Part shown: piece by piece, positions 9,341-44,997 of the stretch
How positions within the stretch are numbered: position 1 is the stretch's first letter
How the letters are laid out: the number at the start of each line of letters is the position of its first letter
From: Chitinivorax sp. PXF-14
Lineage (GTDB): Bacteria > Pseudomonadota > Gammaproteobacteria > Burkholderiales > SCOH01
Assembly: GCF_040812015.1 (NCBI RefSeq)
Contig: NZ_JBFNXJ010000013.1
Span: forward strand, 62,001 to 126,000
Length of the DNA: 64,000 bases
Reading direction: 5' to 3'
Notes under the pieces: generated by a model
Databases searched by the model: none
Seen by the model: only the letters and a program-made list of their open reading frames with translations
What the model was told of the DNA's origin: nothing
Translations under genes and position numbers: made by a program

Positions 9341-10690
9341 TCAAACGTCTTCGCCCTCTTCGCGGAACTGCTGCAGCTTGTAGCGTAAGGTCCGCTCGCT
9401 GATGCCGAGCCGCTCGGCTGCCAGTTTCCGCACGCCATTGACTGCCGCCAGGGTTTCCAGAATATGGCGTTTCTCCAGCGTGCGGATATCGGCATCGTCT
9501 TCAGGCGGGGGCGCCGTCTCGACCGGCACCGATGCCATCGGCACGGGCGATGTCGCCGGCAGGTAGAGGTGCTCGGGTTCGATCAAATGCCCCGGTGCCA
9601 GGATAAGGGCGCGTTGAACGACGTTTTCCAGCTCCCTTACGTTACCCGTCCAGCCATATGCCGCAAGGCGCTGCTCTGCGGCCGACGAGAACTGCATCGA
9701 GGCCCGCCCGTCCCGCGATGCATAGCGCCGCAGCAGGTGGCGCGCCAAGGGCACGATGTCACTGGGGCGCTCGCGCAAGGCAGGTATCGCCAACGGAAAA
9801 ACATTCAGCCGGTAGTAAAGGTCCTCGCGAAAACGGCCGGCAGCCACCTCGGCATGCATGTCACGGTTGGTGGTTGCCACCACGCGGATGTTCAGCGGAA
9901 TGGTCTTGCTGCCCCCGACCCGCTCCAGTTGCCGCTCCTGCAGCACGCGCAGCAGCTTGGCCTGGAGGGGAAGCGGCATTTCGGACACCTCGTCGAGCAG
10001 CAAGGTGCCGCCCTCGGCCTGCTCGAATTTACCCGCATGCGCTTGTGCCGCGCCAGTGAATGCCCCTTTTTCATGCCCGAACAGGGTCGATTCCAGCAGT
10101 TGCTCGGGAATCGCGGCGCAATTGATCGCGACAAAAGGCCCTGCCGACCGTGTGGAATGGCGATGCAGATAGCGTGCATAGACCTCCTTGCCCACCCCGC
10201 TCTCGCCAGACAGCAGTACGGTGGCCTCGCTTGCCGCGACTCGCCTCGCCAATGCCAGCAGCTCGATGGTGCGCGGATCGGCCGCAATCAGGTCCGACTC
10301 GTCGAGTTCGCGAGCGGGCAGCATGTGGCGCGCCACCTCAGCCAACAGCGCAGCCGGCTCGAACGGCTTCAGCAAATAGTGGGCAGCCCCATCACGCATG
10401 GCCTGTATGGCCCGCTGCAAATCGCCATAGGCGGTCATCAGCAGAAACGGCACATAGGGATAGCGGCGTTTCACCTCGGCGAGCAGCGTATAGCCATCCA
10501 TGGGTTGCATCTGCACATCCGACACGATCAGGCCGACCCGTTCCCGATCAAGCAGTGACAAGGCTGCCGCTCCGTCGGCGGCAACTCGCACGGAGTAACC
10601 GGTCAGCTCCAGGGTATCCTGCAAGGCCTCCCGCAGGGCGGGATCATCCTCAACAACCAATACGGGTAAAGGCTTCATTTTCGATGACAT
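9341..10690 (-). CDS. fleR: Sigma-54-dependent flagellar response regulator FleR/FlrC
   Basis: NtrC-type activator, about 449 residues. It has a receiver (VVEDDPALR, phospho-acceptor Asp58 in IVSDVQMQP, KPF), a central AAA+ domain with Walker A GESGVGKE and the sigma-54-contact loop GAFTGA, then DEVSEMPLPLQAKLLRVLQE. The C-terminal Fis-type helix-turn-helix is LAAERLGISERTLRYKLQQF. In Pseudomonas and Vibrio, FleR/FlrC, phosphorylated by FleS/FlrB, switches on hook and basal-body genes. Here its kinase lies 2.9 kb upstream with three genes between. ATG at 10690 is six bases after the preceding stop; no Shine-Dalgarno is evident, so coupling is likely. Confidence 0.92.
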   Translation of the reverse strand: MSSKMKPLPVLVVEDDPALREALQDTLELTGYSVRVAADGAAALSLLDRERVGLIVSDVQMQPMDGYTLLAEVKRRYPYVPFLLMTAYGDLQRAIQAMRDGAAHYLLKPFEPAALLAEVARHMLPARELDESDLIAADPRTIELLALARRVAASEATVLLSGESGVGKEVYARYLHRHSTRSAGPFVAINCAAIPEQLLESTLFGHEKGAFTGAAQAHAGKFEQAEGGTLLLDEVSEMPLPLQAKLLRVLQERQLERVGGSKTIPLNIRVVATTNRDMHAEVAAGRFREDLYYRLNVFPLAIPALRERPSDIVPLARHLLRRYASRDGRASMQFSSAAEQRLAAYGWTGNVRELENVVQRALILAPGHLIEPEHLYLPATSPVPMASVPVETAPPPEDDADIRTLEKRHILETLAAVNGVRKLAAERLGISERTLRYKLQQFREEGEDV

Positions 10691-10696
10691 CAAGAA

Positions 10697-11386
10697 TCAA
10701 GTGCTCGGCCCCGGGCCGAGATTCAGGAAAGCCTGCACGCGGCCGGCAAGCTGCTTGAGCGGCAACACCTCGTGCACAGCGCCCAACGCGATGGCCTCCT
10801 TGGGCATGCCGAACACCACGCAACTGGCCTCATCCTGGGCAAAGGTGTGGGCGCCAGCCTGGCGCATTTCGAGCAGGCCCTGCGCGCCATCCCGCCCCAT
10901 GCCGGTCAGGATCACGCCAACCGCCTGCCTGCCCGCCTCGTTGGCCGCGGAGCGAAACAGGACATCGACCGATGGACAATGGCGATTGACTGGCGGCGCC
11001 TGACTCAACGTGCAAACGTACCGCCCCGCCTCCTGCCGCAACATCAGGTGGGAGTGGCCCGGTGCGATGTAAGCATGGCCCTTGCGCACCACCTCCCCCT
11101 GCTCGGCCTCCTTGACGTGGATGTCGCACAGGCCGTTCAGGCGCGCGGCAAATGACTTGGTGAACATTTCCGGCATGTGCTGCGTGATCAAAATCGGCGG
11201 TGAGGCGGGCAACATGGGCAGCAGGAACTCCTTGATTGCCTCGGTTCCTCCTGTCGACGCGCCGACGACGATAACCCGCTCCCCTCTGCCGCTGGCGCGT
11301 AGCTGCAATGGCAGGACGATATCGGCCGTGTGCAGCGGCTTGAAGTCCGTTGCAACGGAAATTGGCTTGTCAGATTTGGTAACCAC
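10697..11386 (-). CDS. cheB: CheB-type methylesterase domain without a receiver
   Basis: 229 residues covering only the catalytic half of CheB, the enzyme that demethylates or deamidates chemoreceptor glutamates. The triad is complete: Ser44 (GASTGG), His70 (ITQHMP) and Asp166 (TGMGRDGA). Spacings of 26 and 122 equal those of Salmonella CheB (164/190/286). The usual N-terminal receiver (about 130 residues) is absent, and the 63-bp gap upstream leaves no room for it. GTG start with GGGA seven bases before. Set between hsbR and fleR rather than with the che genes. Unknown: whether the enzyme is constitutive or controlled by the neighbours. Confidence 0.85.
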
Positions 11387-11449
11387 TGTGGCGTCCCGGT
11401 CAGGCAGGGTCAGACGGTGGTCTGCAGTGGATGAAACGGCGGCAACGGA

Positions 11450-13147
11450 TCAGCCACCCTGGCCCGGCATGAAATACACAACCACCTCGCTGCCATTCCC
11501 AAGGTATTGCACCGACGCGGCCAGCGACTTGACCAGCATGACCCCCCGCCCGTGAACGGTGATCGCATGCCGCTGGGCATTTTCAAGTGCGGCAACATCG
11601 AAACCAGCCCCGCTGTCCTTGACGCGAACCCGCAGGCTGGGGCGTCCCTGTATCGCCAGTTGGGAAAGCTCGATTTCGATCTCCCCACGCAACAGGGTAT
11701 CGAGGCGTTCGGCCCGCAAACGCAGGTAGTCGTCCATGCCGTCTACGTCCTGCTTGAGCTTGGATTCGACATTGAGCAGGCCGTGATCGAGCGCGTTGTT
11801 GAACAGCTCCGACAGGATAAGAAAAACCTCCGACTGCGAACTCTTGAGAAAATCGATCTGCTTGATGAACTCCATCAGCAAAGGCACCACACTGCAACGG
11901 CGCAGTTCATTCGGGCCGAGTCTCACGGAATAACGCCACCCCATGCTGGCAGCGGAATCCAGCTCGAATGGCACCTTTGCATGGCCGTTCGGCACGCTGG
12001 TTGGGTCCTCGAGTGCGCAATGCACGAGCGCCAGCGAGACATCGTCGTGAAATGCCTGCCCCCCCATGAATGTCCGGAGCTCACGCTCGATCCGCTCGAA
12101 GGCGGGTATCCCGGGGGTCGCGGCAAAGGCATCCAGGATCGGGGCAGCACCAAATACCTGGCGGTCTTCCCTACGGGCCTCAATCAGGCCGTCAGAACAC
12201 ATGAACAGCCAGTTGTCGGTATCGAACGAGGCATGAGACGTCCGGGCATCGAATTCCGATGACGACAGGATGCCCAGTGGCAGATGGTGGCTTTTCCAGC
12301 GCTGGCTGACATTGCCCTTTGCATCAAACAGGACGATATCCGGCATTCCGCCGTTCCAGACCTCGATCATGCCATTGCTAGGATCGATCGCCGCAAGCGC
12401 CACAGCGACAAAACGGCCGACAGGAAGTACCTGCCTGACCTTGGCATTCATCTCGACCAGCAGTTCCGGGATGGAAAACCCCTTTTCCGTCATCGTGTAA
12501 AACGGCTGTGTCAGCGGCAACACATTCAGCGCGGCGGTCAGGCCATGGCCGATGCCATCCGCCAGCATGATGTGCAACCGGTAGCCAGGGGTCCGGGCGG
12601 CGGCAATCAGGTCGCCGGACAGGCTCTCCGCCGCGGCGATGGAGTATGTCAACGCCGGATCAGCGAGGCGGTCCGCATTGACCATCTGCTCCATCAGATG
12701 GCGGGCAACTCTCTTCTCATCCTCGGCCCGCTCGTAGTAGTCAGCCAGCTTGGCCGACTGCTCGCGCACCTTGTGGTGGAGATCGATGGAGCGCTGGATT
12801 GCCTTGATCTTGGCTTCGAGAATACGAAAATTGATGGGCTTGAGCAGGTAGTCGTCGGCCCCCTGCTCGATCGCATCGGCCAGCTGGCTTTCCTCGCCAA
12901 TCGCAGTGATGAATACGATCGGCACCCAGTGGTCGCCCGCCTCCGCCTTGATGCGCCTCGCGGCCTCTGGGCCATCCAGCACCGGCATCATCATGTCCAT
13001 CAGGATGAGGTCGGGCTTCTCCGCGATATAAGCATCGATTGCCTGTTGGCCATCGCGTGCGAGCAACGTCTGATGCCCCAAGGTCGCGATGAACTTCTGC
13101 ATCAGCAGAAGCATGATCTCGGCATCATCGACGATCAGGATTTTCAT
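11450..13147 (-). CDS. hsbR: HsbR-like fusion: receiver, PP2C-type phosphatase, anti-sigma-factor kinase domain
   Basis: 565 residues in three parts. Residues 1-125 are a receiver (LIVDDAE, Asp51 in LILMDMMMP, LLKP). About 165-380 is a SpoIIE/PP2C phosphatase with the metal motifs LADGIGHGLTA, NGGMPD, CSDGLIEA and DDVSLAL. About 410-565 is a GHKL ATPase with N-box SELFNNALDHG, G1 box DSGAGFD and GRGVMLVKSL. This is the architecture of Pseudomonas aeruginosa HsbR, which phosphorylates or dephosphorylates the STAS protein HsbA to switch between FlgM-dependent swarming and biofilm formation. The gene for such a STAS partner is directly upstream. The ATG at 13147 has only a weak ribosome site. 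Confidence 0.88.
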   Translation of the reverse strand: MKILIVDDAEIMLLLMQKFIATLGHQTLLARDGQQAIDAYIAEKPDLILMDMMMPVLDGPEAARRIKAEAGDHWVPIVFITAIGEESQLADAIEQGADDYLLKPINFRILEAKIKAIQRSIDLHHKVREQSAKLADYYERAEDEKRVARHLMEQMVNADRLADPALTYSIAAAESLSGDLIAAARTPGYRLHIMLADGIGHGLTAALNVLPLTQPFYTMTEKGFSIPELLVEMNAKVRQVLPVGRFVAVALAAIDPSNGMIEVWNGGMPDIVLFDAKGNVSQRWKSHHLPLGILSSSEFDARTSHASFDTDNWLFMCSDGLIEARREDRQVFGAAPILDAFAATPGIPAFERIERELRTFMGGQAFHDDVSLALVHCALEDPTSVPNGHAKVPFELDSAASMGWRYSVRLGPNELRRCSVVPLLMEFIKQIDFLKSSQSEVFLILSELFNNALDHGLLNVESKLKQDVDGMDDYLRLRAERLDTLLRGEIEIELSQLAIQGRPSLRVRVKDSGAGFDVAALENAQRHAITVHGRGVMLVKSLAASVQYLGNGSEVVVYFMPGQGG

Positions 13148-13174
13148 CAAGAAACGAAAAGGCGGGGGAAACGG

Positions 13175-13480
13175 TTAGCGGATGGTAAAGATCTTGCCGA
13201 AGCAAGCAATTTCCAGCACCTGGCGCACGGTATCCTTGCAGTTGACCAGTGCCAGACTCTTGTTGGCAGTATTCACTTTTTCTTTTACCAACAGCAGCAT
13301 GCCCAATGCTGACGAATCGAGATAGGTGACCTTCTGGAAGTCGATCTGGATTTCGCTGACGTTCGGATTACCGATCACCGTCTCGCAAGCCTGGCGGAAT
13401 TCGCGGTGCGAATTGAAATCGAACTGCCCGGCAAGCACGACTCTGGCAATCTTGCCTTCAATTTCGACAATGGGACTCAT
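13175..13480 (-). CDS. hsbA: STAS-domain anti-sigma factor antagonist, HsbA-like
   Basis: 101-residue single STAS domain. The phosphorylation loop YLDSSALGMLLL places the acceptor serines at 56/57, next to Asp55, as in SpoIIAA, RsbV and HsbA. In Pseudomonas, HsbA is the substrate of HsbR and binds the anti-sigma factor FlgM or the cyclase HsbD depending on its phosphorylation. The start is taken at the second of two tandem ATGs because AAGGTG then has normal spacing; the other choice adds one residue. It precedes hsbR by 27 bp. No flgM or hsbD lies in this window. Confidence 0.87.
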   Translation of the reverse strand: MSPIVEIEGKIARVVLAGQFDFNSHREFRQACETVIGNPNVSEIQIDFQKVTYLDSSALGMLLLVKEKVNTANKSLALVNCKDTVRQVLEIACFGKIFTIR

Positions 13481-13572
13481 CATTTCACCTTGGATTTTTT
13501 CAAGCACTGTACCTGGACGCCATGCTCAACCACGCGCCAAGCCGGGTCTTGCTTACCGCTAACAATAGATGC

Positions 13573-14751
13573 CTAGCCAATAACAGGCAACTCGACGATG
13601 AAGCGGCTGCCTTCATCAATACATGATTCTACTCGAATACTCCCGCCATGGGCGTCGATTACATGCTTGACGATGGCCAGCCCAAGCCCCGTGCCATCCG
13701 AACGGGTGGTAAAAAATGGCTCGAACAGTCGCGACATCTTGTCTGCGGGAATGCCAGCGCCATCATCCACCACCGCAATCGTCGCCACATCGCTCTGCAC
13801 GCCAACCTCCAGGTGCACCGTACATCCGTCGCCGCAGGCACGCATGGCGTTGTCGAGCAGGTTCAGAATCGCACCGACAAGCGATTTCCGGTCGCATTGC
13901 AGCAAGCGTTGCCCCGCCTGCACGTGGCACGCAAAGTCGATTCCGGCGGCAGCGGCCTGCGGCTCGATTGTCGATGCCAATTCGGCCGCCAGTGCCTCCA
14001 GCGTAACCTGATCATCCAGCGAGGCCTGGCCCCCTTTGACGAAACGCAGCATGTCTTGAATCAGGCGCTCCAGATGCCTGAGTCGATCGAGCGACCGAGT
14101 GCCAAAGCGAACCCGGTCCTCCTCGCTCAGCGAAGCACGGGTGAGATTGGCGCAATACAGCATCGCGGTGGCTAACGGCGTGCGCAACTGGTGCGCCAGA
14201 CCGGCCGCCATCTCGCCCATGGCCACCAGCCGCTGCTGATGGTCAAGTTGCCGCTGCATACGATATGACTCGGTGATGTCGTGCAGCAACACGATCGCCC
14301 CGCCGGAAGCAGCCAGCGTGCTTTCGCTCATGCTCAGGATGCGCTCACCTCCTGACACATCGACCGGCTTCAACGCCCATTCGCCCGGGGTTGGCAATTT
14401 TTCCAGCATCGCGAGAATGGCCTGATCCCAGTTGCGCCCCATCACCGATTCGCCGAGCAAACGCCGTGCTGCGGCGTTGATCGCGATCACCTCACGCCCG
14501 TCATTCAATTCCACCACGCAGGCAGGCAGCGCCTGCAGCAGCGAAGTCAGGCGCGAAGACAGTTCGGCTTTTTCGGCATACTGCCGCCTCAGCTCGCCAT
14601 TGGCGAACGCCAGCTCCTCGGTCAGTTTTTGGGCCTGCTGCTGCAGCTCGAGATAGGACTGGGAGAGCTGACGCGAGGCCTCGGTGAACATCGAGAACGC
14701 CTGCTCAAGCTCGGCATGCCCATGTGTCATAGGGGAGGAAGTGATGGCCAT
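13573..14751 (-). CDS. fleS: Flagellar sensor histidine kinase FleS/FlrB
   Basis: 392-residue soluble kinase without membrane segments. It has an N-terminal coiled coil (about 25-72), a PAS-like domain (about 73-165, ALPACVVELNDGREVIAINAAARRLLG) and a phospho-acceptor His187 in LAHQLRTPL. The HATPase boxes are NLLDNAMRACGDG, DDGAGIP and GTGLGLAIVKHVIDAHGG. The coiled coil-PAS-HisKA layout with HQLRTPL is typical of FleS/FlrB, which phosphorylates FleR/FlrC once early flagellar structures exist. First gene of the minus-strand regulator series. ATG at 14751 lacks a good Shine-Dalgarno; ATG seven codons later is an alternative. Confidence 0.88.
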   Translation of the reverse strand: MAITSSPMTHGHAELEQAFSMFTEASRQLSQSYLELQQQAQKLTEELAFANGELRRQYAEKAELSSRLTSLLQALPACVVELNDGREVIAINAAARRLLGESVMGRNWDQAILAMLEKLPTPGEWALKPVDVSGGERILSMSESTLAASGGAIVLLHDITESYRMQRQLDHQQRLVAMGEMAAGLAHQLRTPLATAMLYCANLTRASLSEEDRVRFGTRSLDRLRHLERLIQDMLRFVKGGQASLDDQVTLEALAAELASTIEPQAAAAGIDFACHVQAGQRLLQCDRKSLVGAILNLLDNAMRACGDGCTVHLEVGVQSDVATIAVVDDGAGIPADKMSRLFEPFFTTRSDGTGLGLAIVKHVIDAHGGSIRVESCIDEGSRFIVELPVIG

Positions 14752-15123
14752 GGTTTACCAGTCATAGAAAATCGGAACAGGCCGCAATCTCTGGAAAATC
14801 GCATGTACCAGGACTCATGTCCAACGATTGCTGCCTGCTGTGGCAAGGTGCCGCATCAAATCCAGTGGATGACAATATTGCAATCAACCGCTATACACCA
14901 ATGGACCATTGGCGCAGGACACATACCTAGTGGAATACCCGTCCACAGCCACGACAGGCCTAGAATTCGAATGCAAGATAAAGTACATTAACGTTTTCTA
15001 ATGGAATGTGCGGCAGTACGCTTGGACATAGGCTAGTATTATTCTGTTAGCAGGAGCATTTGCAAGTCCAGCAAGGCTCCCGACCATTGCAACCATGCGC
15101 GAAGACATCCTGGAGCAACAATC
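14752..15123. other. Divergent regulatory region between the fleS series and the che genes
   Basis: 372 bp with diverging genes on both sides, so it must hold promoters for both units. It is AT-rich at 14960-15045. On the minus strand a GG-N10-GC arrangement occurs near 14864-14851, but its -12 part reads GCGGC rather than TTGCA, so I do not call it sigma-54. No clear sigma-28 element (TAAA / GCCGATAA) is seen before cheV. Confidence 0.5.
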
Positions 15124-16071
15124 GTGTCAGATCTGCTGAAGAGCATTGATGCCCGCACCAAACTAGCCGGCACCAACAAACTGGAAATTCTGCTGTTTAC
15201 GCTTGGCCTCGACCAGCGCACCAATCGGCGGGAAAACTTCGGCATCAACGTATTCAAGGTGCGAGAAGTCATGCGCACCCCGGAAATCACGAGAGCACCG
15301 GACATGCCCCCGGCTGTCGAGGGGATGGTCAGCCTGCGCGGCCATCTGGTACCCGTTGTCGACCTTGCCAAGTATTCGGGCGTGAAGACAGACGTGAAGC
15401 CGGAAATCATGATCGTGACCGAATACAACGGGCACACGCAGGGCTTTCTGGTCGAAGGGGTCGACACCATTTTGCGCCTGGACTGGGCTTCGATGCGGGT
15501 CCCACCAGAAATGATCATGAAGGAAATGGGCGGCTTGGTCACGGCAGTCACCGAGGTCAACGACAAGCTCGTCATGATGATGGACGTCGAGAAAGTGCTC
15601 GCCGAAACCTCCCCTCGCTTCGAAGACGAAATACAGTTCAATGCACTGAAACCGGCAGGGGTGCGCGGCAAGACGATCTTCTTCGCTGACGACTCGCTGA
15701 TCGCACGCAAGCAGATCAGCCGCACGCTCGATGCAATGGGCATCAATCACCACCATGCCATCAATGGTCGCCGTGCGTGGGAAGAGCTCCAGAAACTGGC
15801 CACCCAGGCAGAAGCGCACGGAGAGCCGCTGTCCAGTAGGCTGGACCTGATACTGACCGACATTGAAATGCCGGAAATGGACGGCTATATGTTGACTAAA
15901 ATGGTGAAGACCGACGCGCGTTTTAGCGGCATTCCAATCTTGATGCACTCATCGCTGTCGGGCTCATCGAACCAGAAACTCGGCCAATCGGTTGGCGTGG
16001 ATGGGTACGTGACGAAATTCGAGCCGCAGAAGCTGTCCGAAGCGATTTCGAAGATGTTGATCAAGGAATAA
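15124..16071 (+). CDS. cheV: Chemotaxis coupling protein CheV (first copy)
   Basis: 315 residues: a CheW-like domain (about 1-160, LEILLFTL, FGINVFKVREVMRTPEIT, SLRGHLVPVVDLAKY) and a C-terminal receiver (about 178-310, FFADDSLIARKQI, acceptor Asp in LILTDIEMPEMDG, TKFEPQ). CheV links receptors to CheA, and the receiver is thought to act in adaptation as a phosphate sink. GTG start, with GGAG eight bases upstream. First gene of the che series; no separate cheW is in the window, so the CheVs may be the local couplers. Confidence 0.95.
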   Translation: MSDLLKSIDARTKLAGTNKLEILLFTLGLDQRTNRRENFGINVFKVREVMRTPEITRAPDMPPAVEGMVSLRGHLVPVVDLAKYSGVKTDVKPEIMIVTEYNGHTQGFLVEGVDTILRLDWASMRVPPEMIMKEMGGLVTAVTEVNDKLVMMMDVEKVLAETSPRFEDEIQFNALKPAGVRGKTIFFADDSLIARKQISRTLDAMGINHHHAINGRRAWEELQKLATQAEAHGEPLSSRLDLILTDIEMPEMDGYMLTKMVKTDARFSGIPILMHSSLSGSSNQKLGQSVGVDGYVTKFEPQKLSEAISKMLIKE

Positions 16072-16107
16072 CAATACCGTTGAAAAGAGCCTGCCAGGAA
16101 CCTGTCG

Positions 16108-17046
16108 ATGACCATGACCACTAATGAATCCTTGATGGAAAACGTAGACGCGAGAACTAAGCTCGCGGGCTCGAACAAGATGGAGATTTTGCTATTCTCC
16201 CTCGGCACCAAGGAAATCTTCGGCATCAACGTCTTTAAAGTCCGCGAAGTATCGCAGACCCCCAAAATAACCAAGACCCCCAACATGCCCGTCGGCGTAG
16301 AGGGCGTCATCTCCCTGCGCGGCAACATCATTCCGGTCATCTCGCTGGCCAAATTCATCGGCACCCGGGATGCCAGTGGCAATTCGGCCGACACCATGAT
16401 CGTTACCGAATTCAGCAAGCATACCCAGGCCTTCCTGGTGCACGACGTCGATCGCATCATCCGCGTCGATTGGGACCGTGTCCGCGCGCCGGAAGCCATG
16501 CTGGCAGGGAACCAGGGCCTGATTACCGCGCTGACCGAACTGCCTGACGGCAAGCTGGTTTCGATACTGGACGTTGAACAGATTCTGGCCAGCGTCATTG
16601 GGGAGAAGGCGATTCCGGATATCCCGGCGGTGCATGTCGAGGGCGAGAGCTTCATGTTCTTCGTCGACGACTCGATGATTGCCCGCAAGGAGATCGTGTC
16701 CGTTCTCGACAAGCTGGGTGCCAAGTACTTCCAGGCAAACAATGGCAAGGAGGCCTGGGACAAGCTGCAGGGGATTGCCAATCGTGCCATGCAGGATGGG
16801 CAAGCGCTGAAAGACTCTCTGAAGCTGATCCTGGTCGATGCGGAAATGCCGGAGATGGATGGCTATGTGCTCACCAAGCACATCAAATCTGACCCAAGAT
16901 TCAGAGGGATACCTGTCGTAATGCACTCCTCCCTGTCCTCCGCAGCAAACCGCGCAATGGGTAGCAGTGTTGGCGTCGATGCGTATGTGGCAAAATTTGA
17001 TCCGTTCGTCCTGGCGGAGACGATCAGCCCCCTGTTGCAAGGCTGA
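16108..17046 (+). CDS. cheV: Chemotaxis coupling protein CheV (second copy)
   Basis: 312 residues with the same CheW-like plus receiver layout as its upstream neighbour, to which it is clearly paralogous (DARTKLAGSNKMEILLFSLG, FGINVFKVREVSQTPKIT, LILVDAEMPEMDGYVLTKHIK). The acceptor Asp (LVDAEMP) and the lysine near KFDPF are present. The first copy carries an eight-residue insert after LFTLGLD that this one lacks. It follows by 36 bp. Keeping two CheVs side by side suggests tandem duplication with divergence toward different receptor sets; that is inference. Confidence 0.95.
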   Translation: MTMTTNESLMENVDARTKLAGSNKMEILLFSLGTKEIFGINVFKVREVSQTPKITKTPNMPVGVEGVISLRGNIIPVISLAKFIGTRDASGNSADTMIVTEFSKHTQAFLVHDVDRIIRVDWDRVRAPEAMLAGNQGLITALTELPDGKLVSILDVEQILASVIGEKAIPDIPAVHVEGESFMFFVDDSMIARKEIVSVLDKLGAKYFQANNGKEAWDKLQGIANRAMQDGQALKDSLKLILVDAEMPEMDGYVLTKHIKSDPRFRGIPVVMHSSLSSAANRAMGSSVGVDAYVAKFDPFVLAETISPLLQG

Positions 17047-17124
17047 ATGCTTCGCGGGAAACCAAATCACAATTACCCCAGCACCTGACAAGGATGTTGG
17101 TCAGCAAGTTAAGCGGAGATGACG

Positions 17125-17514
17125 ATGCCAGATAAGAATATGCGATTCTTGGTTGTAGATGACTTTTCGACCATGCGAAGAATCGTTCGAAACCTGCTCA
17201 AGGAACTTGGCTTCGGCAATGTGGATGAAGCTGAAGATGGGCAGGTTGCGCTACACAAGCTCAAGAATTCCCAGTTTGATTTTGTCGTATCAGACTGGAA
17301 CATGCCGAACATGAGCGGCATTGAATTACTGAAGGCAGTCAGGGCCGATGCGGGGCTGAAGGACCTGCCCTTTCTGATGATTACCGCCGAGGCCAAGAAG
17401 GAAAACATTATCGAGGCCGCCAGCGCCGGCGCCAGCGGTTACATCGTCAAGCCCTTTACTGCCGCTACGCTTGACGAAAAGCTGAATAAAATCTTCGAGA
17501 AGCTCGGAAAGTAG
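17125..17514 (+). CDS. cheY: Chemotaxis response regulator CheY
   Basis: 129-residue single receiver that binds FliM when phosphorylated and reverses the motor. Its key residues carry E. coli numbers: Asp12/13, acceptor Asp57 (VSDWNMPN), Thr87, Tyr106 and Lys109 (SGYIVKPFT). Similarity to E. coli CheY is very high along the whole length. GGAG lies six bases before the ATG at 17125, which I prefer to the ATG two codons earlier that would overlap the ribosome site. cheZ follows after nine bases. Confidence 0.97.
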
Positions 17515-41998: not shown

Positions 41999-42035
41999 TT
42001 GACGCCTTGTCATTCTTTATTGATAATAATTCTCA
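41999..42035 (+). promoter_or_regulatory. Promoter and Fur box before the DUF2325 gene
   Basis: TTGACG (41999-42004), 17 bases, GATAAT (42022-42027). Overlapping the -10 is a 7-1-7 Fur motif TGATAAT-A-ATTCTCA (42021-42035), matching TGATAATnATTATCA at 13 of 14 arm positions. Repression by iron-loaded Fur is expected. A strong AAGGAG precedes the gene. Confidence 0.78.
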
Positions 42036-42056: not shown

Positions 42057-42416
42057 ATGAATGCCATGCTGATCGGCGCCGACACGCTCGGCAACATCCC
42101 CGACACGCTTGCCGAGTACGGCATCCACATCTGCCGCCACATCAGCGGCCGTAACGCAGCCCATCAGCGTAAGTTGCCGAGCCTGCCGAAGGAAACGGAG
42201 CTGATGATTCTGTTCACCGACTTTCTCGGCCACAACGTCATGCGCCATTTCCGCGAACTGGCCAACGAGCATCAGGTCAGATTCGTCGCCTGCCGCCGTT
42301 CGGTGTGCGCGCTGAAGCAATCTCTCGACGGCCTGTCGCAGCAGGAAAAGGCCAGCATCTGCGAGGGCTGCAAGCATGGCAAAGGCAAAGCCGTAGCAAA
42401 ACGCAAATACGATTAA
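42057..42416 (+). CDS. DUF2325 protein
   Basis: 119 residues. MLIGADTLGNIPDTLAEYG, ELMILFTDFLGHNVMRHFRELA and FVACRRSVCALKQSL are the pattern of DUF2325, a small family with a Rossmann-like start and conserved cysteines (VACRRSVC and ICEGCKHG). The biochemical role is unknown. The Fur-type promoter directly upstream and Bfd and bacterioferritin downstream suggest a job in iron handling. The C-terminal end is rich in Lys/Arg and Cys/His. Confidence 0.82.
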   Translation: MNAMLIGADTLGNIPDTLAEYGIHICRHISGRNAAHQRKLPSLPKETELMILFTDFLGHNVMRHFRELANEHQVRFVACRRSVCALKQSLDGLSQQEKASICEGCKHGKGKAVAKRKYD

Positions 42417-42423
42417 TTATCAC

Positions 42424-42461
42424 TTGTCTTTTTGCATCAAAATAATTGATAATACATCTCA
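42424..42461 (+). promoter_or_regulatory. Promoter with a weaker Fur box before bfd
   Basis: TTGTCT (42424-42429), 18 bases, GATAAT (42448-42453). TGATAAT-A-CATCTCA (42447-42461) repeats the perfect left arm of a Fur box with a poorer right arm, again over the -10. AAGCGGAG precedes the bfd ATG. Confidence 0.65.
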
Positions 42462-42495: not shown

Positions 42496-42690
42496 ATGTA
42501 CGTCTGCATTTGCCACGCCGTGACCGATACCCATATCCGTGAAGCCGTGAACCAGGGCTGCTGCTCGATGCGCGACCTGCGCCACGAGCTTGGCGTGGCC
42601 ACCCAGTGCGGGCGTTGCGCCTGCCATGCGCGGGACGTCCTCAACGCGGCCCTGCTCGACATCGCCGAGCCCATCCCCAACGCGGCCTGA
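42496..42690 (+). CDS. bfd: Bacterioferritin-associated ferredoxin
   Basis: 64 residues. Four cysteines at 4, 6, 38 and 41, identical in position to E. coli Bfd, ligate a 2Fe-2S cluster (MYVCIC, QCGRCACHA). Bfd reduces ferric iron in bacterioferritin so that it is released. An extra pair, Cys22-Cys23, lies in QGCCSMRDLRHELG. Own promoter, followed by bfr after 75 bp, its natural partner. Confidence 0.95.
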   Translation: MYVCICHAVTDTHIREAVNQGCCSMRDLRHELGVATQCGRCACHARDVLNAALLDIAEPIPNAA

Positions 42691-42765
42691 CTGTCCGCCC
42701 TCTACCTTTCCACGCGCCCTGTGCTAAGCTGAGATTCGTTATCCAGCCAGCATTGGGAGCCCGTC

Positions 42766-43242
42766 GTGAAAGGTGACAAGAAAGTCATTTCCTACCTCAA
42801 CAAGGCACTGCTCAACGAGCTGACCGCCATCAATCAATATTTCCTGCACGCCAAAATGTACAAGAACTGGGGTGTGCACAAGTTGGCCGAACACGAGCAT
42901 CACGAATCGATCGACGAGATGAAGCACGCCGACAAGCTGATCGAGCGTATCCTGTTTCTCGAGGGGCTACCCAATTTGCAGGACCTGGGCAAGCTGCTGA
43001 TCGGCGAGAACGTAGAGGAAGTGCTCAAGTGCGACCTCAAGCTCGAGATGACGGCGCTCCCGCTGCTGAAGGAAGCCATTGCCTACTGCGAGACGGTGCA
43101 GGACTACGTGTCGCGCGAGTTGTTCGAAGAGATTCTGGAGAGCGAAGAAGAGCATATCGACTGGCTCGAAACCCAGATCGATCTGGTCGCCAAGATGGGT
43201 ATCCAGAACTACACCCAGCTGAACGCCTCGTCCGCCAGCTGA
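42766..43242 (+). CDS. bfr: Bacterioferritin
   Basis: 158-residue heme-containing iron-storage protein that builds 24-mers. All ferroxidase residues sit at E. coli numbers: Glu18, Tyr25, Glu51, His54, Glu94, Glu127 and His130. The heme ligand Met52 is present (DEMKHADK). GTG start with GGGAG upstream. Directly behind bfd; the receiver gene begins two bases after its stop, implying one message. Confidence 0.97.
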
Positions 43243-43244
43243 TC

Positions 43245-43640
43245 ATGGCGTCCCACTTCGTCAGGCAGCCCGTTCCAAACCGGCGGGCGCTCATCGTCGA
43301 CGACGACCCGGTCAGCCGAAAGCTGCTGCGCGCCATGCTGGATCAGCAAGGCTGGGCGGTGAGCGATTTCCCCGCCGCCGGCATTGCGTTGGACAGCATC
43401 ACCAGCCATGGCGCCGAGCTCATTCTGTTCGAGATCGGCATGCAGAGCATGACCGGCCTCGAGTTATGCCGGGTGATACGCAGCCAGGGCGGCGCCAGCC
43501 AGCCCAAGATCGTCGCCTACACGGCGCACGCCCAGCAGGAAGACAAGAAGCTATTCATGAGCAATGGCTTCGACGACATCCTGCTGAAACCGGTCAATTC
43601 GAAAACCGTGGCGGCCATGCTGGAGCGACTTGGCCAGTAA
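43245..43640 (+). CDS. Single-domain receiver with Glu in place of the phospho-acceptor Asp
   Basis: 131 residues, no output domain. The acidic pair Asp19/Asp20 (ALIVDDDPVSRKLL), Thr93 (AYTA) and Lys115 (LLKPV) are normal, but the acceptor position reads LILFEIGMQ with Glu63. Asp-to-Glu changes often mimic the phosphorylated state, so the protein may be locked active or respond to something other than phosphate. It starts two bases after bfr, without a clear own Shine-Dalgarno, so coupling is likely. No kinase gene nearby. Confidence 0.85.
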   Translation: MASHFVRQPVPNRRALIVDDDPVSRKLLRAMLDQQGWAVSDFPAAGIALDSITSHGAELILFEIGMQSMTGLELCRVIRSQGGASQPKIVAYTAHAQQEDKKLFMSNGFDDILLKPVNSKTVAAMLERLGQ

Positions 43641-43656: not shown

Positions 43657-44997
43657 CTACAGGTCGAACTGCCATTGCAGCAGGTAGCCAGGCTCGCCGG
43701 CCGCTGCCCGTGCATCATGGCACCATACCAGGCCGGGTACGGCCAGCAAACCGTCCCCGGCGTAGATCAGGGGCAGCCGCTCACGCAGCCAGGGCGCCAC
43801 GCTCTGCTCCTGGTAGATCTGTTTCAACGTCTTGTGATGCGCTGAGCCCGCGGGCTGGATGCGCTCCCCGCCACGGCGCCGAGTGATGTGCAGCGTCTGT
43901 TCGAGCCGGGCGCGGGCGATTCCGCCCCGGGCTTGCCGGACGAACTGGAGCGCCCCGCCCCACGCCGGCAGCGTGATGGCGTCCTGCCCCTGCCAGTCGA
44001 TCACGACATCCGGCAACGCAAGCGAGACTGGCCGCACGAAGTGGATGCGTGCCGCATGCCTACGCAACGCGCCCTCCCCCATCTCGACTGCCATCGCCAC
44101 ATCGGGCCGGCTCTCGCGAATCTGCCGCAGCGCCTCTTCCAGCAAGGCGCCATCGAGCGCAGGAAGGTAATGGCTAAGGAACCAGCGCAGCAGGTTCTTC
44201 GCACGGTAGGCCGGCAACGCCAGCAAGGGCGCGACATCGAGCTGGGCCAAGGCCAGGTCGCCGCAAAAATCGGCCTGGGCCAGATCGTCGGCGATCGCAG
44301 ACGCCTCGGCAAAATACTGGGCAGACCGCGCCAGGACAGCTGGCGCGCGCGGATAAGACTCCGCCACAACCGGCAACACCCGGTGACGGATGAAGTTGCG
44401 ATCGTAGCGCGTATCGAGGTTGCTTTCGTCCTCTACCCACACCAACTGGCGCTCGGCGACATACTCGACCAGTTGTGCCCGCGAGACAGCAAGCCAGGGC
44501 CGTAATACATGCTGCCCGGATGGCAGGACACGGCTTGCCGGCATCCCCGCCACGCCTCGCACGCCGCCACCGCGCAACAGCTGCTGCAGCACGGTTTCCG
44601 CCTGATCGTCCGCGTGCTGGGCCAGCACCACGGCACTGACCCTGGCCTGGGCATAGCAGGCATAGCGTGCCTGGCGGGCTACCGCCTCAAGGCTTTCTCC
44701 GCCCCGGCGCTGCAACTGCACGGAATGGGTGGACAGCGGAATGCCCAGCCCCCGGCACAGCTCGGCGCAGAATTGCGCCCAGTTGGCCGCGTTCGGGCTC
44801 AGGTTGTGATTGACGTGGACAGCCGAGAGCGCAATGCCGAACGATGGCGCTACCTGGCTTGCGACGGACAGCAGCGCGACAGAATCCAGCCCGCCGCTCA
44901 AGGCGATGGCAACGGGCTGGCCGGCAAACGGTTGGAGCGAAGAGATGAGCGCGCGCTTCAGGCGCGACTCAAGCGGCGATTTCCTTGAACTTGCCAT
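43657..44997 (-). CDS. tilS: tRNA(Ile)-lysidine synthetase
   Basis: Modifies C34 of the AUA-reading tRNA-Ile to lysidine. 446 residues. The N-terminal ATP-pyrophosphatase domain has the [10 protein letters not shown] loop, [26 protein letters not shown] and [24 protein letters not shown]. The C-terminal TilS domain has [22 protein letters not shown]. Essential in most bacteria. Its start overlaps the accA stop by 29 bases in another frame. Confidence 0.96.

Follow-up and report, generated by a model that had tools for sequence, protein, structure and literature searches.

A stand-alone receiver with glutamate in place of the acceptor aspartate lies directly behind bacterioferritin and is a candidate phosphate-independent switch

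The stretch of DNA analysed here (the window) comprises 64,000 nucleotides of a contig of Chitinivorax sp. PXF-14, and includes a short, conserved gene cluster containing bacterioferritin. The cluster begins on the plus strand with a gene encoding a DUF2325 protein (42057..42416; PF10087, 54.2 bits), followed on the same strand by bfd, encoding bacterioferritin-associated ferredoxin (42496..42690; PF04324, 40.7 bits, above the cut-off), and bfr, encoding bacterioferritin (42766..43242; TIGR00754, 255.5 bits against a cut-off of 125.55). The best NCBIfam match of bfd, NF007803, scored 53.2 bits, under the model cut-off of 75. The stop codon of bfr lies 2 nt before the ATG of a plus-strand gene for a stand-alone receiver of 131 aa (43245..43640), and the cluster is bounded by the convergent gene tilS (43657..44997, minus strand; PF01171/PF11734), which we place outside the system. 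With DUF2325, bfd, bfr and tilS as its neighbours, accA beyond them (frame read by eye) and no adjoining kinase, the receiver is an orphan response regulator. Elsewhere in the window, five receiver matches fall within ~7 kb (10334-17484; contig C13:72334-79484), a dense region of two-component signalling.

The only Pfam match of the 131 aa protein at E ≤ 0.001 was to the Response_reg family PF00072 (77.7 bits, E 9.9e-22, residues 16-126; curated cut-off 30.2). No second Pfam family was detected at that threshold, so no output domain was found, and the orthologues described below are close to it in length, as is characteristic of single-domain response regulators. The PF00072 match also rules out a wrong frame or spurious ORF, and a start-codon choice that hides an output domain can be discounted, as the upstream frame overlaps bfr. 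Kinase and regulator names among NCBIfam-type matches to the receiver were cross-matches far below the cut-offs. A sequence search of solved structures at E ≤ 1e-8 returned 21 ordinary receivers and kinases, which were uninformative on the acceptor residue, and an AlphaFold2 model of the single receiver sequence was set aside owing to its mean pLDDT of 47.

Alignment against Asp-bearing relatives placed residue 63, a Glu encoded by GAG at 43431-43433, in the phospho-acceptor column. The other active-site residues, Asp19, Asp20, Thr93 and Lys115, are kept at their expected positions, and every residue named in an earlier, sequence-only reading of this locus was confirmed. A sequencing error was ruled out, as the identical residue occurs in three genomes via different codons. 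The absence of the acceptor Asp, with Glu in all three orthologues, identifies the protein as an aspartate-less receiver (ALR), and the loss of at least one key phosphotransfer residue while the other four are kept makes it a pseudo-receiver by sequence. ALRs are reported to account for ~4% of receivers in all life, and pseudo-receivers for ~6% of bacterial ones (PMC12632262). Glu is described as the commonest acceptor replacement (26% of ALRs), although Glu alone is often insufficient for activation (PMC4395418).

The selectivity of the change sets the window protein apart. The DD2 residue is given as non-acidic in ~80% of published pseudo-receivers and acidic in ~20% (PMC12632262), and by sequence the near-intact pocket here is atypical of the class; with D19, D20, T93 and K115 all retained, it may yet be chemically active or able to hold a metal. 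Among 66 receiver domains detected in the same genome at E ≤ 1e-5, 63 have Asp at the acceptor, two have Glu and one has Ala, and the window receiver is the only one of the 66 in which Asp is replaced with the other four residues kept. The second Glu receiver (L187, G000:C9:188574-188915) has also lost DD2 (Thr) and lies in a 566 aa open frame. The Ala receiver (L192, G000:C11:106291-106629) has Pro at DD2, and a second receiver match follows immediately downstream of it; an open frame of 281 aa is reported for each.

We next consider the fate of this residue in the family, for which five genomes were available, including that of PXF-14. Both genomes of a second genus (G001 and G003) carry a syntenic receiver of 45-50% identity in the order DUF2325-bfd-bfr-receiver-tilS, and both receivers have Glu, the three acceptor codons being GAG, GAA and GAA. 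In the third genus (G002 and G004, fragmented assemblies of 440 and 680 contigs), bfd-bfr is followed by an unrelated convergent gene with no receiver there, and the best receiver matches elsewhere in these assemblies were about 1e-13. An Asp-type paralogue was not found in PXF-14 or in G001 and G003, where the next best match was ~1e-12 against 1e-83 to 1e-30 for the receivers themselves. The alignment with relatives proposed in the sequence-only reading thus returned Glu in three of three bfr-linked orthologues, three sequences only, and the Asp-bearing relatives that it named as counter-evidence were confined to more distant, partly kinase-linked receivers, with none among the bfr-linked orthologues.

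Glu identity in three sequences alone is no proof of selection, because a neutral third codon position would stay purine in all three with a chance of 0.30-0.52; fixation of Glu is modest evidence of selection. It is in this context that we considered whether the gene could be a relic, a receiver without its kinase that is drifting slowly and in which Glu is a tolerated change. The narrow distribution of the gene and the possibility of neutral Glu retention would fit such a history. However, all three orthologues retain an open reading frame and the four remaining active-site residues, and synteny is kept across genera. In the G001/G003 pair the NG86 estimates for the receiver were dN 0.283 and dS 1.323, a dN/dS near 0.21, with dS values near saturation. 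The dN of the receiver (0.28) is below that of its neighbour tilS (0.39), and the receiver is therefore not decaying faster than tilS. The receiver gene overall is under purifying selection, and we consider a relic quite improbable.

The linkage to bacterioferritin was surveyed in 399 genomes, of which 113 matched bfr at E ≤ 1e-60; 30 loci were checked, each read with 1.5 kb on either side as far as contig ends permitted. A receiver lies beside bfr in 3 of the 30, exactly the known ones, and in none of the other 27, which include both genomes of the third genus. Among the loci read, receiver–bfr linkage is specific to this lineage. DUF2325 genes adjoin bfd-bfr in 4 of 25 bfr loci outside the family (L091, L099, L101 and L108), a linkage wider than that of the receiver. 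The claim that the receiver is tied to bacterioferritin holds as gene linkage only. A physical tie, with the receiver attaching to the Bfr shell or competing against Bfd and so setting iron loading or release, would be consistent with the position of all three orthologues directly behind bfr, at gaps of 2 nt (window), 3-6 nt (depending on the start codon chosen) and 55 nt (G003). Such a partnership has to contend with the 27 bfr loci that manage without a receiver. Furthermore, Bfr is 85-86% identical between the window and the two orthologous loci, whereas the receivers are only 45-50% identical, and this far better conservation of Bfr gives no sign of tight co-evolution. We regard a direct Bfr partner as distinctly unlikely.

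To place the Glu receivers among their wider relatives, a three-sequence profile was searched against 399 genomes of the order, 146 of which matched at E ≤ 1e-17. The acceptor residue was read in 30 loci (L045-L073 plus L001): it is Glu in L001, L045 and L046 and Asp in the remaining 27 rows, two of these being repeats (L057 and L072 repeat L004 and L005). Among 60 locus rows matched by tblastn at E ≤ 1e-12, weaker loci having been dropped, 8 rows representing 3 genes have Glu and 52 rows have Asp. A search of 369 genomes of the class gave five matching genomes besides that of PXF-14 at E ≤ 1e-23, all with Asp. Outside the three bfr-linked genes, all relatives in which the residue was read have Asp. 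A search of genome contigs with the single receiver protein returned one distant match, 29% identical, in a Clostridiales MAG, and a tblastn search of plasmids with the receiver found nothing at E ≤ 1e-15.

A tree was built from 43 sequences, eight of them other receivers of the PXF-14 genome; in it the three Glu proteins group together as a single clade (FastTree local support 0.926), with Asp-type receivers next to it. A histidine kinase was found beside five of the six closer Asp-type relatives whose neighbours were tested with Pfam; the sixth neighbour, beside the Asp relative closest in sequence (L074), is a PAS-GGDEF-EAL protein and not a kinase. The kinase-linked context of these relatives suggests that the gene probably derived from a kinase-linked receiver. 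The simplest history would be that in the common ancestor of the two genera such a receiver either relocated to the place behind bfr or persisted in it, and lost its Asp. One Asp-type relative (in G011, L005:28-2291) lies between a kinase-like gene and a gene for an Hpt-domain protein (by eye), a compact phosphorelay cassette.

At fourteen positions the Glu group shares a single residue that no more than 5 of 23 Asp-type relatives have. The group-specific positions fall mostly in what we presume, from the usual receiver layout, to be helix alpha1 (24, 29, 31 and 34) and helix alpha4 (97, 100-102, 104 and 107). Helix alpha1 is in general the kinase-docking helix. Position 24 is Asn in 22 of 23 Asp-type relatives and Ser in all three Glu receivers; by our own numbering, we equate it with DD+4 of PMC12632262. 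The conserved residues of alpha1, together with the kinship to receivers that adjoin kinases, raise the possibility of a kinase decoy, in which the receiver would bind a histidine kinase transmitter and block or titrate the kinase, as the stand-alone receivers Osp and FixT are reported to do; its iron-regulated synthesis would then damp one two-component system. A precedent is Osp, which is reported to inhibit CckA without being phosphorylated (PMC9430884). The group-specific change in alpha1 can equally be read as the loss of an old kinase, however, and the locus has no adjoining kinase. In addition, the acidic pair that is absent from Osp and FixT as they are described in PMC9430884 is kept here, with D19 and D20 in three of three. 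On balance we consider a decoy unlikely, if a serious candidate.

Asp21 is likewise group-specific: all three Glu receivers have it, but just 5 of the 23 Asp-type relatives do. Glu63, Asp19, Asp20 and Asp21 are thus four carboxylates invariant in the three members, and could together make an acidic binding pocket for a divalent metal, possibly Fe2+, with the receiver reporting the metal. The iron-gene context and the Fur-type sites described below would suit a sensor of this kind. In its most specific form, the exchange of Asp for Glu in combination with the invariant Asp19-Asp20-Asp21 would have created an Fe2+-reading switch that reports cytoplasmic iron to Bfr, or to a regulator within the same iron-controlled cluster. 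Receivers bind Mg2+ anyway, however, and the longer side chain of Glu may fill the metal site. Both the metal sensor in general and the Fe2+ switch in particular seem to us very improbable.

Other positions around the active site bear on phosphorylation and conformation. The T+1 residue is Ala in the window receiver and His in both orthologues (two of three); small residues at T+1 are described as giving access to the phosphorylation site (PMC12632262). The K-3 residue is Ile in all three Glu receivers, and classical Y-T coupling is absent because Ile replaces the Tyr or Phe that it needs; an aromatic residue is missing here from most Asp-type relatives too. At K+2 the Glu receivers have Val or Ile, and residues of this type are reported to shift CheY towards active conformations (PMC12632262). 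With the acceptor Asp gone in three of three, a bulky His at T+1 in two of three and no kinase in the neighbourhood examined, the proposal of the sequence-only reading that the receiver is phosphate-independent is well supported.

The upstream regions of the cluster point to iron control. A Fur-type site at 42021..42035 on the plus strand, before DUF2325, reads TGATAATAATTCTCA and differs by one mismatch from the Fur 15-mer consensus, TGATAATnATTATCA. The site overlaps a promoter-like -10, and has counterparts with one mismatch in both orthologous loci (L086 and L087), where DUF2325 and tilS also keep their positions. A weaker plus-strand site before bfd (42447..42461) has three mismatches in the window and one in each orthologous locus, so that Fur-type sites precede DUF2325 and bfd in three of three genomes. 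The window contains four matches to the 15-mer with three or fewer mismatches, against 0.86 expected. As all three genomes keep these sites, DUF2325 may be a component of the system that releases iron from bacterioferritin. An extended -10-like site, TGNTAWGCT, lies at 42722-42730 before bfr, a pattern that is not above chance in the window, and bfr may have its own promoter there; with a separate promoter possible, it is less than certain that the receiver is under iron control.

Several known systems share part of this arrangement. ALRs and pseudo-receivers as described in PMC4395418 and PMC12632262 likewise combine a receiver fold, as judged by sequence, with a substitution of the acceptor Asp, whereas the window protein loses Asp alone, has no output domain and lies directly behind bacterioferritin. 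SsoR of Shewanella oneidensis is presented as a Fur-controlled, phosphate-independent and dose-dependent response regulator in iron homeostasis (PMC12442407), and in these respects resembles the model proposed below; SsoR, however, is described there as phosphorylatable and as a transcription activator, while the window protein lacks the Asp and, by Pfam, the DNA-binding output domain of iron transcription regulators of the SsoR/RitR type. RitR of Streptococcus pneumoniae is also an aspartate-less receiver in an iron regulator (PMC4395418), but is reported to have Asn at the acceptor, Lys10 at DD2, Asp81 at the Thr position, a DNA-binding domain and a redox Cys (PMC4395418, PMC12632262). Osp and FixT are single-domain receivers that act by contact without phosphorylation, as is proposed for the window protein; in the account of PMC9430884 they miss the acidic pair before alpha1, whereas the window protein keeps the pair, and so is not of the Osp/FixT type, and loses the Asp. 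Keyword searches of the open-licence literature showed no bfr-linked pseudo-receiver among the papers listed. The class of altered receivers is known, and its pairing with bacterioferritin is apparently new.

Taken together, these observations lead us to favour, with moderate confidence, a lineage-restricted pseudo-receiver that is phosphate-independent, acts by contact and has its output set by dose through co-production with bacterioferritin. In the ancestor of the two genera, the gene would have sat, or been placed, directly behind bfr, and its acceptor Asp would have become Glu; its parent family would be one of stand-alone receivers, several with a histidine kinase as immediate neighbour. 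The resulting stand-alone, aspartate-less protein would be out of phosphotransfer. Permanent activity, as put forward in the sequence-only reading, is a standard hypothesis for receivers in which Asp is replaced by Glu. We propose that the protein most likely stays in a single, probably on-like conformation in which Glu63 would lie close to Thr93 and Lys115, and that it would act by protein contact through the group-conserved surfaces of helices alpha1 and alpha4. The strength of the signal would be the amount of receiver, since receiver and Bfr are predicted to be produced together from a cluster that has Fur-type sites ahead of it. Loss of phosphorylation is strongly indicated by the sequence, as is co-expression with bfr at the 2 nt gap of the window, with a weaker indication at the 55 nt gap; dose control is moderately indicated, and an on-like state weakly to moderately.

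On/off switching of bacterial pseudo-receivers is acknowledged as an open question in PMC12632262. The present locus suggests a switch set by the amount made and not by phosphate, and offers a small and clean system in which to test 'Glu as permanent mimic, dose as signal', because it combines one active-site difference, no output domain, Asp relatives that are kinase-linked and a two-genus cluster under likely iron control. If iron did prompt the receiver to contact bacterioferritin or a kinase, iron status would have a new path into signalling.
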